A stretch of 32,441 nt of DNA, taken from NCBI GenBank assembly GCA_945889445.1, contig CAMDBX010000048.1:1-32441 (forward strand), read 5' to 3'. The notes beneath the pieces were generated by a model, which was not told where the DNA came from, made no database searches, and was given only the letters and a program-made list of their open reading frames with translations. A program made the position numbers and the translations under genes. Positions 1 to 32,441 of the stretch are shown here, in pieces. Each line of letters starts with the position of its first letter. Position 1 is the stretch's first letter. This stretch comes from Rhizobium sp. Q54 (GTDB taxonomy: Bacteria; Pseudomonadota; Alphaproteobacteria; Rhizobiales; Aestuariivirgaceae).

Positions 1-441
1 GCGAACCATGGAACTCAAGCTTCAGACGGCGGTCGAAATCGAGCCTGAGAACACCATCAATCGATTCACCCGCCGGGTTCTCCATGATGACCTCACATGG
101 TTCAGGTTATAGTCATGATATTTATACCTGAATCATGGAAAGTCCGCCAGAAATCAGTGCGTCATCTGGCGAATGCGGGCTTAGAGGAATGAGGCGGGGC
201 TCGCGGCGATGCCGCCGACCTTCGCCGCTGCGAGGAAGATGGCGTCAGTCCATGATCGCTACCGTCGGCCGTGCCGATCCGTTCGTTTGCCGGGGTGCGA
301 CAGACCCAACAAGATATGCCAAGAAAACGGTGGTTACAGGTGCGGCACATTTTCCTGATAAGTATTTGAAAAATTTGCGATATCGCATGCCCGCAGGGAG
401 CGCCACTTTCGAACAAGTCCAGGAAGTTTTCCAACGGTAGC
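1..441. other. Window edge with no supported gene
   Basis: A short open stretch at 8-112 (plus, ATG to TAG, 34 codons) could be the end of a gene running in from outside or chance. Overlapping ORFs on both strands between 135 and 440 have low-complexity, Arg/Ser-rich translations typical of antisense noise in GC-rich DNA, and none is recognisable. Apart from the dyad at 96-137 I see nothing to annotate. Confidence 0.4.
96..137. repeat. Imperfect inverted repeat, possible operator
   Basis: The arms at 96-111 (catggttcaggttata) and 123-137 (tatacctgaatcatg) are near-perfect reverse complements, separated by 11 bases. The core TTCAGGT...ACCTGAA looks like a dimeric regulator site rather than a terminator, since no T-run follows either arm. 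No adjacent regulator gene is visible, so the cognate protein is unknown. Only the dyad is observed; the operator role is inferred. Confidence 0.45.
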
Positions 442-4383: not shown

Positions 4384-6270
4384 TCACTGCTCGCCATGCG
4401 CTACCACGAGGGCGTGGCGCAGCGCCGCGTGCTGAAAGCCCTCATTCGCGTCCGGTGACGATGGTGCAAGCCCAGCCTTCTTGCGCGCCGGTGAAGCGGG
4501 CAGCATTTGCCCCTCCATCACCGTACCCCACACCGCGATGTCCTTTATGGACATGGGGTCGACCGTGAGGGGATTGTCTGCCAGTACCGTGAAGTTGGCG
4601 CGTTTGCCGGGGCTGATCGTTCCCACCTCGGCTTCGAGTTTCAGCGAATAGGCAGCCTCGCTGGTGATGCCGCGCAGCGCTTGCTCCACGCTCACCCGTT
4701 GTTCGGGTGCTGCCACACGGCCTGACGTGGTGCGGCGGTTGACGGCGCACCACATCAGGAACAGCGGATCGGCAGGCGCCATCGCCATGTCGGAGTGCAG
4801 CGACCACGAGATGCCGGCGCGCGAGAGATCGCCGAGGCGCACCATTTCATCGGCACGCTCCGGACCAAGACCAACTCTGCCATATTGGTCGGCCAGTGCG
4901 GTGACATAGTAAGGATTGCCGCTGACGATTGCGCCCAGTGCCTTGATGCGCGCCACCTGGTCAGGGCTGCTTACGGCGAAGTGCACGAGCACGGTGCGAT
5001 GGTCATAGCGCGGATTGCGACGAAGATTGACTTCAAGTGCATCGAGCACGCGGTCGAGGCCGGCATCGCCATTGACATGGATATGTATCTGGTAGCCGGC
5101 GTCCCAATAGACACGGAAAGCGCGCTCGAAGTCGGGCTCATTCATCATCCACTCGCCCTTGTGCCCATCGAGATAAGCCTCGCGCACCTGCATGAGCTGT
5201 GAATAGATTGCGCCATCGGCAAAAAGCTTGGCCTGCATTGGTGCAAGGCTGGTCATGCCGCCATACCACGAGGCCAGCTCCTGTGACTGGGCGATCACCT
5301 GCTGGTCGTCCGGGTAGCTTGCCACCATGCTCTTTGCATCCACCATGAAGGACCAGCGGAATGGCATGGAGGGACTGGAAAACACGGCGTTGACACCATC
5401 CTGCACCGGCTTCGAGAGAATGCCTCCCGGCTCGTTGCCGATGGTGATGCCCTTGGCGTGCATGTAGTCGCGCGTCAGTTCTAGCCCGGCCCTGACGCGC
5501 TGGGGTGACGCGGCGAAACTCGCGATGTGTGGCAGCACCGCGAACAGTCCCTGTTCCCAGAAATGCCCGTCCGCCATGCTCGACTGTTCCCTGGCTGTGG
5601 GCGTGAAGGCCTCGAACACCGCATCGGTGATGCCGGCGCGCTGCATGGTTGCCGTGTTGAAGACCATCTCGTGGCAGGAGCGACCCCACACGATGATGGG
5701 CCTGGTGGTGCTGATGCCATCAAGCTCTGCCTTGGTCAGCGGGCCGAAGAAGGCAGGATGATAACCCCAGGTCACCACAGCCTCGTCCGAAGGTGCTGCG
5801 GCCTTCACCGCGCTGCCGAGGCGCTGCAGAAAGTCCTGCTTGTCCTTCACCGCGGGCACGGTGCCGCCGGGTAGCACCCAATCTTCAATGGAGAGGATCT
5901 CGGAGGACATGGTCAAGGCGGCCAGCACCGGGTGGTCGTGCTGGGCGATGAAGCCCGGAACCAGCACATGGTCGGCAAGGCTCGAGTCGATATTGTAGGG
6001 CTGCTTGCCCGGAATGCCGGTCACTTCGTCGCGGCTTCCCACCCACAGAATGCGCCCGTTCGCCACGGCTACGGCCTGTGCACTGGGCCGCGCCGGATCG
6101 AGCGTCACGATCTCGCGGGCGAGAAAGACAGTTGCCGGTGGTTGCGCCAGCAACGAGGCCCCGAGCTCCGTGAGCGGCTCAGTGAGGGCTAACGCGCTGC
6201 GCGGCGCAGTTGCCCCTGCCAGTCCAAACGCACCTGCGGCCAGGAGCAACCTGCGGGATATGCTGTCCAT
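4384..6270 (-). CDS. Tat-exported amidohydrolase (YtcJ-like, amidohydrolase 3)
   Basis: A 628-residue metal-dependent hydrolase. Residues 1-30 carry a twin-arginine signal (SISRRLLLAAGAFGLAGA ... SALA), so it is probably folded before export to the periplasm. Metal-binding motifs of the amidohydrolase 3/YtcJ group are visible: HDHP at 111-114, IHIHVNGDAGLDR in the middle, VHFAVSSPDQV, and SLHSDM near the end, followed by the usual C-terminal GKRANFTVLADNPL strand. GGGAGCAGG precedes the ATG. Members act on amides, carbamates and N-substituted formamides, and the substrate here is unknown. It stands alone between cspA and an empty 500-bp spacer. Confidence 0.85.
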   Translation of the reverse strand: MDSISRRLLLAAGAFGLAGATAPRSALALTEPLTELGASLLAQPPATVFLAREIVTLDPARPSAQAVAVANGRILWVGSRDEVTGIPGKQPYNIDSSLADHVLVPGFIAQHDHPVLAALTMSSEILSIEDWVLPGGTVPAVKDKQDFLQRLGSAVKAAAPSDEAVVTWGYHPAFFGPLTKAELDGISTTRPIIVWGRSCHEMVFNTATMQRAGITDAVFEAFTPTAREQSSMADGHFWEQGLFAVLPHIASFAASPQRVRAGLELTRDYMHAKGITIGNEPGGILSKPVQDGVNAVFSSPSMPFRWSFMVDAKSMVASYPDDQQVIAQSQELASWYGGMTSLAPMQAKLFADGAIYSQLMQVREAYLDGHKGEWMMNEPDFERAFRVYWDAGYQIHIHVNGDAGLDRVLDALEVNLRRNPRYDHRTVLVHFAVSSPDQVARIKALGAIVSGNPYYVTALADQYGRVGLGPERADEMVRLGDLSRAGISWSLHSDMAMAPADPLFLMWCAVNRRTTSGRVAAPEQRVSVEQALRGITSEAAYSLKLEAEVGTISPGKRANFTVLADNPLTVDPMSIKDIAVWGTVMEGQMLPASPARKKAGLAPSSPDANEGFQHAALRHALVVAHGEQ

Positions 6271-29658: not shown

Positions 29659-29735
29659 GGCGGGGTAGCTCAGTTGGTTAGAGCACGGGAATCATAATCC
29701 TGGGGTCGGGGGTTCGAGTCCCTCTCCCGCTACCA
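29659..29735 (+). tRNA. tRNA-Met (CAT)
   Basis: 77 nt including an encoded CCA. The acceptor stem GGCGGGG pairs with TCCCGCT (two G-U), the D arm reads gctcagttggttagagc, the anticodon loop is atCATaa, and the T loop is ttcgagt. The sequence fits the elongator tRNA-Met of alphaproteobacteria rather than initiator or tRNA-Ile(CAT). Its 3' end is the boundary of a compositionally different region. Confidence 0.92.
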
Positions 29736-30085
29736 AATTTATCAATAAAAACAGTGACTTGCGGACGATAAACCTTGGCGGATTATCGTCCGAAAGAGTT
29801 CTACACACATATACACTCTGGCTTTGCCTGCTCTGCATCGTGGCTTCGTCTGCCGAACGCCCATCACGGGGAATGAGAAGGGTTCCAACTGGTGCGGATG
29901 AACTATGGAAGAGGACCAAACCCCCTACCTAAACCGCCCAGCCACAACGCTCTGTGGCAAAACGACACACCTCCAAGAACATCCCTCCTAAACATCACCT
30001 GCCCTAGCGTGAGGTAGAAATACCGATCAACTTTCCCGTGGGAACGTTACAGAATGCAGCAGAGGATTTTAGTGGATGGGGGACC
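29736..30085. other. Spacer at start of putative element
   Basis: About 350 bases of lower GC than the DNA to the left. A minus-strand ORF across the tRNA end gives GEGLEPPTPGL, a known artefact of tRNA 3' ends. The only structure seen is the inverted repeat at 29762-29792; no integrase gene is in the window, and I see no clear promoter. Confidence 0.6.
29762..29792. repeat. Perfect inverted repeat past tRNA-Met
   Basis: cggacgataa (29762-29771) and ttatcgtccg (29783-29792) are exact complements with an 11-base loop. No T-run follows, so a protein-binding or recombination site is more likely than a terminator. Confidence 0.6.
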
Positions 30086-30964
30086 ATGCCTGCCGACGCT
30101 TCTCTGCGCTACAGCATCCCTGGGGATAACACCCTGGCGCTAACCGATGCTCTTGCCCGCGACATTCGCAGACACTTCGCAGCCGACCGCGAGAACCGAT
30201 TTCAGCTCTTCCTTCTCGCGGCGGGTATTCGCAAACGCTACATGCGTCGGAAAGGTAGTCAAAAGGACGAATACGAGGAAGAGTTCCGCAACTGGTATGC
30301 CAGCAAGGAAATGGACAAGCTCTTCGGGCAACTTCCCAACCTCGCAAAATACGGTGCTGCTGGTGAAGTGATCGCTCACACAGCGACCCTGAAGGACAGC
30401 GAAAAGTACCTACAGCGACTGCCGACCAGTATGCGGGCTCTGTATTCCACCCATTTGCTTCTGCAAAGAGACAAGAAGCTGTTTGAGGTGTGCCTGACGA
30501 TTCATCCCACGCGAAAGTCGGTTGATGAGCCTCAGTCCGAGTGGGGAATGAAGGGGGACACACCGCTCATTCATCCTGACGCTACGTCGCAGGAGATTGA
30601 TGTTTTCGTAGAGCGGTGGTTCGCCACTCATCAGCCATCGCAGTCGCCTGTGAATAAGGAAAAGATGGTGCTGCTGGCGAAGTTCTACGTGAGCAAGGAT
30701 CTTTTCGCATTTGACAAGAAAACAGGTCAGCACCTCTGTAAAGTGGATATCAAAGAGGTGGAAGAGCTACTTGGTGAATTGCAGCGCAAACTTCCGAAAG
30801 GGAAGGTGTTCGCTGTTGAAGACGACATTACAAAGATAAGAGATAAATACTACAAAGCCAAACGTCGCAGTGGTTCTGCTGCAAAGATTCTTGCGAAGCC
30901 AAGCCAGCGCATAGTGAAGAGTAAGACGAAACCCTCTGCGAAAAAGGCTCCAAAGAAGTCTTAG
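30086..30964 (+). CDS. Hypothetical protein next to TAGT-like gene
   Basis: 292 residues from the ATG at 30086, which has GGGGGACC just upstream; the frame is open from a GTG at 30038 but that has no site. Not confidently recognised. Helical N-terminal half (DALARDIRRHFAADRENRFQ, then QKDEYEEEFRNWYASKEMDK), a segment KYGAAGEVI, and LPTSMRALYSTHLLLQRDKK, a layout reminiscent of phage or plasmid proteins of the DUF3102 kind. The tail is basic and repetitive (KPSAKKAPKKS), suggesting nucleic acid binding. Lys-rich and lower GC than the genome. The stop is 9 bases before the next start, so it forms an operon. Confidence 0.6.
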   Translation: MPADASLRYSIPGDNTLALTDALARDIRRHFAADRENRFQLFLLAAGIRKRYMRRKGSQKDEYEEEFRNWYASKEMDKLFGQLPNLAKYGAAGEVIAHTATLKDSEKYLQRLPTSMRALYSTHLLLQRDKKLFEVCLTIHPTRKSVDEPQSEWGMKGDTPLIHPDATSQEIDVFVERWFATHQPSQSPVNKEKMVLLAKFYVSKDLFAFDKKTGQHLCKVDIKEVEELLGELQRKLPKGKVFAVEDDITKIRDKYYKAKRRSGSAAKILAKPSQRIVKSKTKPSAKKAPKKS

Positions 30965-30973
30965 GAGGAAGCG

Positions 30974-32380
30974 ATGGCTGCGAAGAAGGGTGTTGCTGGG
31001 TACAATAATCTTGTTCCAGAGACTGAGGCTTATCTCCGAAAGCATCCGCGAAAGAAATCGGAGCAAGCCAAAACGCAGAAGAAGCAGAAAAAGCAAAAAC
31101 TGTTCGCTTATGAACTCAACGTTCACCTAAAAACCAAGAAGGACTGTGACGCATTTGCGAGATGCATCAAGCGACCGCTCTATCGGTCCGAACAAGCATT
31201 TACGTTCAGCCACAGAGATACATTTCCTGCAGCAACGTGGAAGTTCAACGAGAACAAACACTCAAAGCCACAAACACTTTCCCAAAAGAAAAAAGACAGA
31301 CTGCGCTTCAAGAACTGGTTCTATAATCGTCACTGGGTCAACATGCCCAGCTTCACGAATGAAGAAGTTCCGTCCTTTATCTCTTTCTCTGTTCGCTTTG
31401 ATACCAAGAAGGCGTTCATGGAATTTGCAAACAGGACATGTCAGTCAATCAGCGTTGCGACCAAGAGCATATGGTATCCCGAACGACCAGATGACGATTT
31501 GACGTCCACGTTTTGGGTTTCAACTACCAAGAACAAGAACCCGAGATACCCTGTCTATATCGTCAGTAAGGGGAGAGCGGGAACAAGACAGACCGCTCGG
31601 ACGTTGGAACGGATGAAAGTGCCTTACTACATCGCGGTAGAGCCACAGGACTATGACGCCTACGCAGTCTTTATCTCTCCAAAAAAGATTCTAACGCTGC
31701 CCTTCTCAAATCACGGTGATGGACCAGGACCAGCGCGAAACTGGTGTATGGATCACGCAAAGAACAATGGCTTCAATAGATCATGGGTTCTTGATGACAA
31801 CATCTCGGACTTCTACCGACTTCATGAGAACAAACGCATTCGCGTAGCCGATGGAGCGATTTTCCGCGCGGCAGAAGACTACGTGGACCGCTACGAGAAT
31901 GTACCTGTTGCAGGATTTCAATATCGGTTCTTTATCGCGCCAGATCAGGCTTATCCACCGTTCGTGAAGAATACCCGTATCTACTCCTGTCTTCTTCTTG
32001 ATAACGATTACAAGCATCGTTTTCGGGGGCGCTACAACGAAGATACGATTCTGTCCCTTGACGTTCTATCGGACGGTGATTGCACGATTCAATTCAACTC
32101 GTTCCTCCAAGGCAAAGCAGCTACCCAGACAGTGAAGGGAGGGAATACTGACGAATTCTACGCGCCAGAGGGACAGGAAGAACGAGCAGAAGGGACGCGC
32201 AAGAAATCCGAGATGCTAAAAGCAATCTATCCAGATGTGACAGAGATCGTTGAACGATACGGTCGGATTCACCACGATGTTGACTATTCCCCATTCCAGA
32301 AGAACCGATTGAAGCCTAAAGTGGATCTCACCAAATTGAAGAGCGTGAATGAATACGGAATGAAGCTGGAGAAAAAATAG
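30974..32380 (+). CDS. TET-associated glycosyltransferase-like (TAGT) protein
   Basis: 468 residues behind a strong TAGGAGGAAGCG site. Residues 191-395 match the TAGT glycosyltransferase seen in phages and linked to base hypermodification: YPVYIVSKGRAGTRQTARTL, VEPQDYDAY, LPFSNHGDGPGPARNWCMDH, WVLDDNISDFYRLHENKRIR with Asp274-Asp275 as the DxD-like metal site, IFRAAEDYVDRYENVPVAGF, and RGRYNEDTILSLDVL. The N-terminal 45 residues are basic. Two related segments (47-80 and 135-170: LKTKKDCDAFARCI and FDTKKAFMEFANRT) look like a duplicated small domain. Expected role: glycosylation of a modified nucleobase or another substrate. No TET/JBP oxygenase is in the window. Confidence 0.75.
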   Translation: MAAKKGVAGYNNLVPETEAYLRKHPRKKSEQAKTQKKQKKQKLFAYELNVHLKTKKDCDAFARCIKRPLYRSEQAFTFSHRDTFPAATWKFNENKHSKPQTLSQKKKDRLRFKNWFYNRHWVNMPSFTNEEVPSFISFSVRFDTKKAFMEFANRTCQSISVATKSIWYPERPDDDLTSTFWVSTTKNKNPRYPVYIVSKGRAGTRQTARTLERMKVPYYIAVEPQDYDAYAVFISPKKILTLPFSNHGDGPGPARNWCMDHAKNNGFNRSWVLDDNISDFYRLHENKRIRVADGAIFRAAEDYVDRYENVPVAGFQYRFFIAPDQAYPPFVKNTRIYSCLLLDNDYKHRFRGRYNEDTILSLDVLSDGDCTIQFNSFLQGKAATQTVKGGNTDEFYAPEGQEERAEGTRKKSEMLKAIYPDVTEIVERYGRIHHDVDYSPFQKNRLKPKVDLTKLKSVNEYGMKLEKK

Positions 32381-32441
32381 AACAGATTACAAAGCGACCC
32401 AGAAATCGCTAACATACCATACGTTTCGGCACTCTATATTC

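Follow-up and report, generated by a model that had tools for sequence, protein, structure and literature searches.

An integrative element has inserted into the transfer RNA (tRNA) gene for methionine, and its left end makes up the right end of the DNA analysed here, which carries two closely spaced genes in which a phage-type TET-associated glycosyltransferase (TAGT) is preceded by a protein of an undescribed family, here called the partner. The window, meaning the whole stretch under analysis, is the entire contig C48 (32,441 base pairs, bp) of Rhizobium sp. Q54 (G000, a 4.94-Mb draft in 262 contigs), and it stops at position 32,441 because the contig ends there. The partner family was seen here solely directly upstream of TAGT, in five loci of distant bacteria, and comparison shows the two genes as a conserved two-gene module. 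That a few unrelated bacteria share the pair suggests the adoption, by small mobile elements, of a DNA-modification enzyme from phages into a two-gene system. Our tentative explanation, to which we give close to an even chance, is a DNA-glycosylation module built on a phage-type TAGT and maintained in small integrative elements, in which the partner would serve as targeting subunit.

TAGT was reportedly named by Iyer and colleagues in 2013. In the accessible parts of two papers it is treated as a phage enzyme that protects DNA (PMC13216743, PMC13390438). According to the former, hydroxymethylcytosine that already bears one glucose receives another from the T2 and T6 enzyme, which yields gentiobiosyl-methylcytosine; of 753 phage genomes, 288 have TAGT but neither an alpha- nor a beta-glucosyltransferase, and in many phages it stands alone in a role that is not known (PMC13216743; see also PMC13390438). 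Bacterial mobile elements are not mentioned in the accessible parts of the TAGT literature that was found by name or accession (PMC13216743, PMC13390438, PMC6163654).

The element is recognized from both of its ends. A search of the genome with the tRNA-Met gene and the next 305 bp returned an exact 46-bp direct repeat of the 3' half of the tRNA on the minus strand of contig C91, for which the chance expectation is approximately 2e-21 (random sequence with equal bases). The remaining 11 matches were less alike or shorter, and ARAGORN found no whole tRNA on C91, thus the copy there is not merely a second tRNA gene. Read in the direction of the tRNA, C91 passes from foreign DNA (GC content 0.524), in which an N-terminal serine resolvase fragment (PF00239, E = 1.7e-12) lies beside the repeat, through the repeat and into chromosome with an amidohydrolase (PF07969, E = 1.2e-75). 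In G404, a genome of the same genus, the two flanks are contiguous and hold no insert; the left side is 87–91% identical, the tRNA is the same and the amidohydrolase is 81% identical, and this empty site rests on gene order; the short spacer that follows the tRNA could not be aligned. Four other members of the genus (G404, G135, G068 and G420) match the right flank over a long stretch, and because the stretches fetched from the last three contain no tRNA-Met, the empty site is demonstrated in one genome, G404. The two genes might have been found at the same locus in most relatives; instead, none of the 36 other genus members searched has the partner, and none of the 12 from this genus in our sample of the order has TAGT. 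The attachment (att) repeat, the resolvase piece beside its second copy, the empty site, the composition and the lack of the partner in genus relatives together identify the element. They support the sequence-only reading, a first interpretation made from the letters, which had placed a foreign element at tRNA-Met and had pointed to a second copy of the tRNA 3' end as its sign.

That reading had also described a loss of GC after the tRNA and a turn to Lys/Asn-rich coding. The GC content over 29,736–32,441 is indeed 0.491, against a mean of 0.641 and a minimum of 0.591 among 540 overlapping, equally long stretches on the left side of the tRNA. Lys is high in both element proteins (12.3% and 10.3%, versus 2.6% and 3.4% in two left neighbours), while Asn is high in the TAGT protein (5.8%) and not in the partner (1.7%; the two neighbours have 0.5% and 3.0%), so the description holds for Lys throughout and for Asn in one protein of the two.

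The partner gene (gene 1) matches its earlier description as a 292-residue protein with a basic tail. It opens with an ATG at 30,086 and ends with the stop at 30,964; an alternative GTG start lies at 30,038, and the homologues start near the ATG. The window protein belongs to no NCBIfam or PADLOC family, and five members of the partner family compared with Pfam and PHROGs gave nothing better than E = 0.024; the best hit among solved structures (0.0099 over 62 residues) is not believed. With a profile run over the open reading frames (ORFs) of 192 loci, the family was recovered in 3 of 40 genome loci, which together with G813 and the window makes five bacterial loci; at least 1.5 kb of upstream sequence was present in 32 of the 39 genome loci having a TAGT frame. 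The three are a gammaproteobacterial metagenome-assembled genome (MAG; L073), a MAG labelled Flavobacteriia (L074), where the label is that of the bin and may be wrong, and a Beijerinckiaceae MAG (L091), all with the partner before TAGT. In G813, another genome of the same class (locus L068), the partner is part of a fused gene (36% identity, E = 3e-50) that stands directly before a TAGT 40% identical to that of the window. The gap between partner and TAGT is 9 bp in the window and −1, 21, −4 and −4 bp in the others. None of 98 viral loci showed the partner next to TAGT (of the 97 that have a TAGT frame, 81 extend at least 1.5 kb upstream of it). Three IMG/VR scans, phage records including those with TAGT (two queries) and plasmid records did not yield it either, and of 398 genomes of the phylum 1, its own, had it. 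Pairing of the two genes, proposed earlier, is supported and strengthened by this distribution. The alignment of the five partners holds 26 invariant columns and no invariant His or Cys, which makes a role as metal-dependent hydroxylase unlikely. A kinship of the partner with the proteins upstream of TAGT in L090 and L080 was considered and rejected: among 255 ORFs (105 upstream and 150 background, the long fused ORF of L068 being beyond the length limit), the best upstream protein other than a partner reached E 0.02, against 0.032 for the best background.

Gene 2 starts 9 bp after gene 1, with AGGAGG ahead of its start. Its reading as a phage-type TAGT gene is borne out by matches to PF20691 (E = 2.2e-43, residues 192–390; 149.1 bits against a gathering cut-off of 27.5) and phrog_842 (E = 5.6e-46), and by its relatives in phage records and IMG/VR. 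The DDN and NED motifs, which probably form the catalytic site, are each kept in 92 of the 93 catalytic domains compared, the window's included. By tblastn, 24 of 50,697 phage records were matched, 22 of them at 39–48% identity over 58–75% of the protein (T4-like and other phages such as phiAS5, Aeh1, POP12 and Kuja) and two at 27.5%, whereas none of 72,556 plasmid records was. The TAGT of T2 and T6, a beta-glucosyl-hydroxymethylcytosine-alpha-glucosyltransferase, shares PF20691, phrog_842 and the DDN and NED motifs with the window protein; however, it is beyond the reach of tblastn at E 1e-5, neither phage being among the 24 records, and the window enzyme differs in lying on a chromosomal element beside an undescribed partner. 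In IMG/VR a scan with the single protein gave 18 loci and an alignment-based scan at least 579 relatives among the 600 candidate stretches listed, from which the best 80 were carried forward. In 84,980 species genomes the single-protein scan gave no locus and the alignment-based scan gave 40; such scans of large genome collections start from no more than two to six short patterns and can miss members. Within the order 2 of 397 genomes had a TAGT match, the one outside our own being weak and with stops, and within the class PF20691 was found in 2 of 385 genomes, our own and G813; it matches once in G000, which has no second TAGT. The family is mainly viral and rare in bacteria. On some contigs (L013, L020, L022, L089 and L110) two TAGT-like frames lie close together.

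Table 1. Features at the right end of the window (nucleotide positions, or residues of the TAGT protein where so marked)
Feature	Position	Strand	Remarks
tRNA-Met(CAU), integration target	29659..29735	+	ARAGORN; identical 77 bases at the G404 empty site
attL core, 46 bp	29690..29735	+	exact second copy (attR) at C91:16162-16207, minus strand
Partner gene, 292 aa, basic C-terminal tail	30086..30964	+	
TAGT glycosyltransferase gene, 468 aa	30974..32380	+	PF20691
D1	residues ~1-115		
D2	residues ~118-190		
TAGT domain	residues 192-390		
DDN motif	residues 274-276		
NED motif	residues 355-357		
Continuation of element up to contig end	32381..32441	.	

Among the four other loci with the pair, L091 and L068 are bounded by tRNA and hold a tyrosine integrase and a Rep-like gene, and a third lies beside an integrase on a short contig. 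In L091 an exact 48-bp repeat of the 3' part of tRNA-Arg(CCG) at 6133 and 16415 delimits an element of 10.3 kb, which carries a G2P-type Rep (PF23343, E = 4.8e-5, below the cut-off), the partner, TAGT, a PMT_2 protein, a small tyrosine recombinase, a TPR protein and an integrase; there is no phage structural gene in 7 of the 9 listed genes, those examined, the other two being small ORFs. L068 has tRNA-Arg(CCT), a gene in which GT1 is fused to the partner, TAGT, a NERD protein, a small tyrosine recombinase, a Rep (PF23343, above the cut-off) and an integrase; it ends at an imperfect tRNA 3' end, and no exact tRNA repeat of 14 bp or more was found. Both share with the window a tRNA 3'-end repeat and the gene pair, and differ from it in their integrase and Rep, neither of which was seen in the assembled ends of the window's element, where a serine resolvase piece is the only such gene. 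No phage structural genes are present in these ends either, nor among the genes examined in L091, the one related element with two exact att copies; an integrative element is the more probable reading than a prophage. L074 (L074:2785-9074) reads integrase, GT1 (a second TAGT-family enzyme, PF20691, E = 1.6e-9), small recombinase, partner, TAGT, a further protein that looks like a restriction endonuclease by eye (no family above the cut-off) and a C5-cytosine methyltransferase (PF00145, E = 1.9e-71), a possible source of the base for further modification. The contig of L073 is short and carries a Mutator-family transposase. In three viral loci (L010, L128 and L179) GT1, the enzyme type that is fused to the partner in L068, stands directly before TAGT, and in L010 and L128 a D2 gene lies ahead of both.

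All five TAGT proteins of these bacterial islands carry D1, D2 (a "W-x-N-M/T" domain) and the TAGT domain on a single chain. Elsewhere D2 is fused alone to TAGT (7 other frames of 143) or encoded by a small separate gene upstream; the three phage loci fetched, L005–L007, have D2 in common with the window and lack D1. We rejected D1 as a hallmark of the islands, since five viral frames have the same D1-D2-TAGT layout (L113, L118, L119, L185 and L187) and the D1 profile picks up small D2 proteins of viruses (best 4.3e-9). The profile matches the D2 region of the same chain in 4 of 5 island proteins as well, and D1 is therefore probably a second D2-like domain. The five viral frames, which lack the partner gene, are possible sources of the island enzyme and likely stand near its origin. 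What distinguishes the islands is the partner, not the domain layout. The partner profile itself aligns weakly, over approximately 50 residues (0.0014–0.0036), with a D2-type protein found in L190 and L192; these proteins were not counted as partners, and the C-terminal part of the partner may be D2-like. In some prophage-like loci a ParB-like domain takes the place of the partner family: ParB_N matched 5 of 17 separate proteins upstream of TAGT, namely L082 (1.1e-4) among 8 scanned and L081, L083, L085 and L089 among 9 others, with L085 and L089 alone above the Pfam cut-off. In a beta-proteobacterial MAG (L078:2270-4288) a ParB_N-like domain, D2 and TAGT are joined in a single frame of 673 aa. 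This company of ParB_N with D2 and TAGT links the enzyme to DNA. The L078 frame precedes a gene resembling a terminase by eye.

The ancestry of the island enzymes was approached with a quick tree of 93 catalytic domains out of 138 available, with one in two of the later viral loci included. L068, L073 and L074 fall together (support 99) with the window near them, its placement not settled, and L091 forms a long branch elsewhere with L090. After six long or divergent rows were dropped, a tree that unites all five surpassed the free quick tree by 13 log units and is not rejected (approximately unbiased test, p-AU 0.741); nor is a grouping of four without L091 (p-AU 0.475). A single origin of the island TAGTs is possible on these alignments.

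Under the explanation we favour, TAGT would transfer a sugar to a hydroxylated DNA base, while D1, D2 and the basic partner would dock the enzyme on DNA, in keeping with the occurrence of D2 together with a ParB-like domain. The acceptor base would most likely arrive with an infecting phage, as the search of this genome turned up no TET/JBP enzyme. The sequence-only reading had suggested looking for such an enzyme nearby; no Tet_JBP gene was detected in our own genome, where controls reached scores below the cut-off only and no search was aimed at dCMP-hydroxymethylase-type genes, nor in any of 34 records, where no control matched. Neither window protein matched a PADLOC model at E ≤ 1, and the matches of partner homologues were single, weak and to different models (L074 0.0032; L091 0.0014). 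On this view the module would take part when the element is in conflict with phages whose DNA is modified. The DNA modification or defence role first proposed for it is an inference.

Several observations weigh against this explanation. The assembled parts of the element are its ends only, the likeness of the partner to a DNA-binding domain does not rise above background, and neither Tet_JBP search had a control above the family cut-off. ParB_N is absent from 12 of the 17 upstream proteins scanned, the three-domain layout is shared with the five viral frames, and starred branches of the quick tree require at least two origins of the island label, one origin not being rejected in the later test. 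The nearest proteins in phage records are at most 48% identical and T2 and T6 are unmatched, hence activity transfers at the family level only. According to the accessible part of PMC6163654, human GREB1 bears a TAGT domain, so that the domain alone is no proof of a phage-type role on DNA.

A more specific version, in which a two-subunit system has its DNA-binding partner direct TAGT to sugar-tag hydroxylated bases in incoming phage or element DNA, we regard as doubtful. If true, bacteria would have their own counterpart of the phage enzyme, serving immunity or counter-defence. Alternatively the module might modify the element's own DNA and shield it from nucleases, for example when Rep-driven replication takes place in a phage-infected cell that makes hydroxymethyl-dCTP. 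The integrase and G2P/ORF2-type Rep of related elements (L068 above the Pfam cut-off, L091 below) would suit such a life, and phage DNA is protected by phage sugar modifications in the accessible parts of PMC13216743; yet there is no Rep in the assembled ends of the window's element, no sign of elements riding on phages and no hydroxylase found (by Tet_JBP searches lacking a control above the cut-off), and self-protection appears unlikely.

The target of the module could also be something other than DNA, such as a surface glycan, a protein or RNA. GREB1 is said in later reports to act on protein, and a PMT_2 protein accompanies the pair in L091. A predicted GT-A fold and a clustering of TAGT beside the cellular GT2 family, given in the accessible parts of PMC13216743, and the presence of the domain in GREB1 (PMC6163654) point the same way. 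Against this stand the ParB-like domains that D2 accompanies in some prophage-like loci, the abundance of close TAGT kin in viral contigs and the Lys-rich composition of both window proteins, and we hold a non-DNA target to be improbable. The idea of a decaying prophage remnant, in which two genes were kept by chance, would agree with the mostly viral kin of TAGT, the D1-D2-TAGT layout common to five viral frames and a resolvase on C91 that looks, by eye, cut short by other DNA, but it is weakened, and to us very unlikely, because both ORFs are open with DDN and NED kept, the partner was missing from every viral and phage search, and the same gene pair recurs in distant bacteria.

With its fixed and undescribed partner, the bacterial gene pair offers a small system that is open to experiment, and it raises the questions of whether mobile elements of bacteria glycosylate DNA, whose DNA that would be, and where the acceptor hydroxyl comes from.

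Some features of the surroundings may be added. Left of tRNA-Met lie ordinary chromosomal genes, including an mnmA-type gene (PF03054, E = 9.3e-70) and a second one that matches CDP-alcohol phosphatidyltransferases below the Pfam cut-off. At the end of C91 lies a fragment of 74 aa to which Pfam gave no match and which we take, by eye, to resemble the end of an IS3 transposase. The last 112 bp of C48 match no other contig, so the contig could not be extended. As the missing middle of the element, C119, which carries a recombinase piece of 49 residues, was rejected, and so was C78, the end of a different element at tRNA-Arg(CCG). This low-GC end (L202:1-2569) has an integrase 59% identical to that of L091, at the same type of tRNA. 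The integrases inspected in G000 sit at sites other than that of the tRNA-Met element. On C13 (L204:4964-6916) an integrase and a complete serine resolvase are adjacent and follow a gene resembling rpsI by eye; this resolvase and the fragment next to attR on C91 share their Pfam family.

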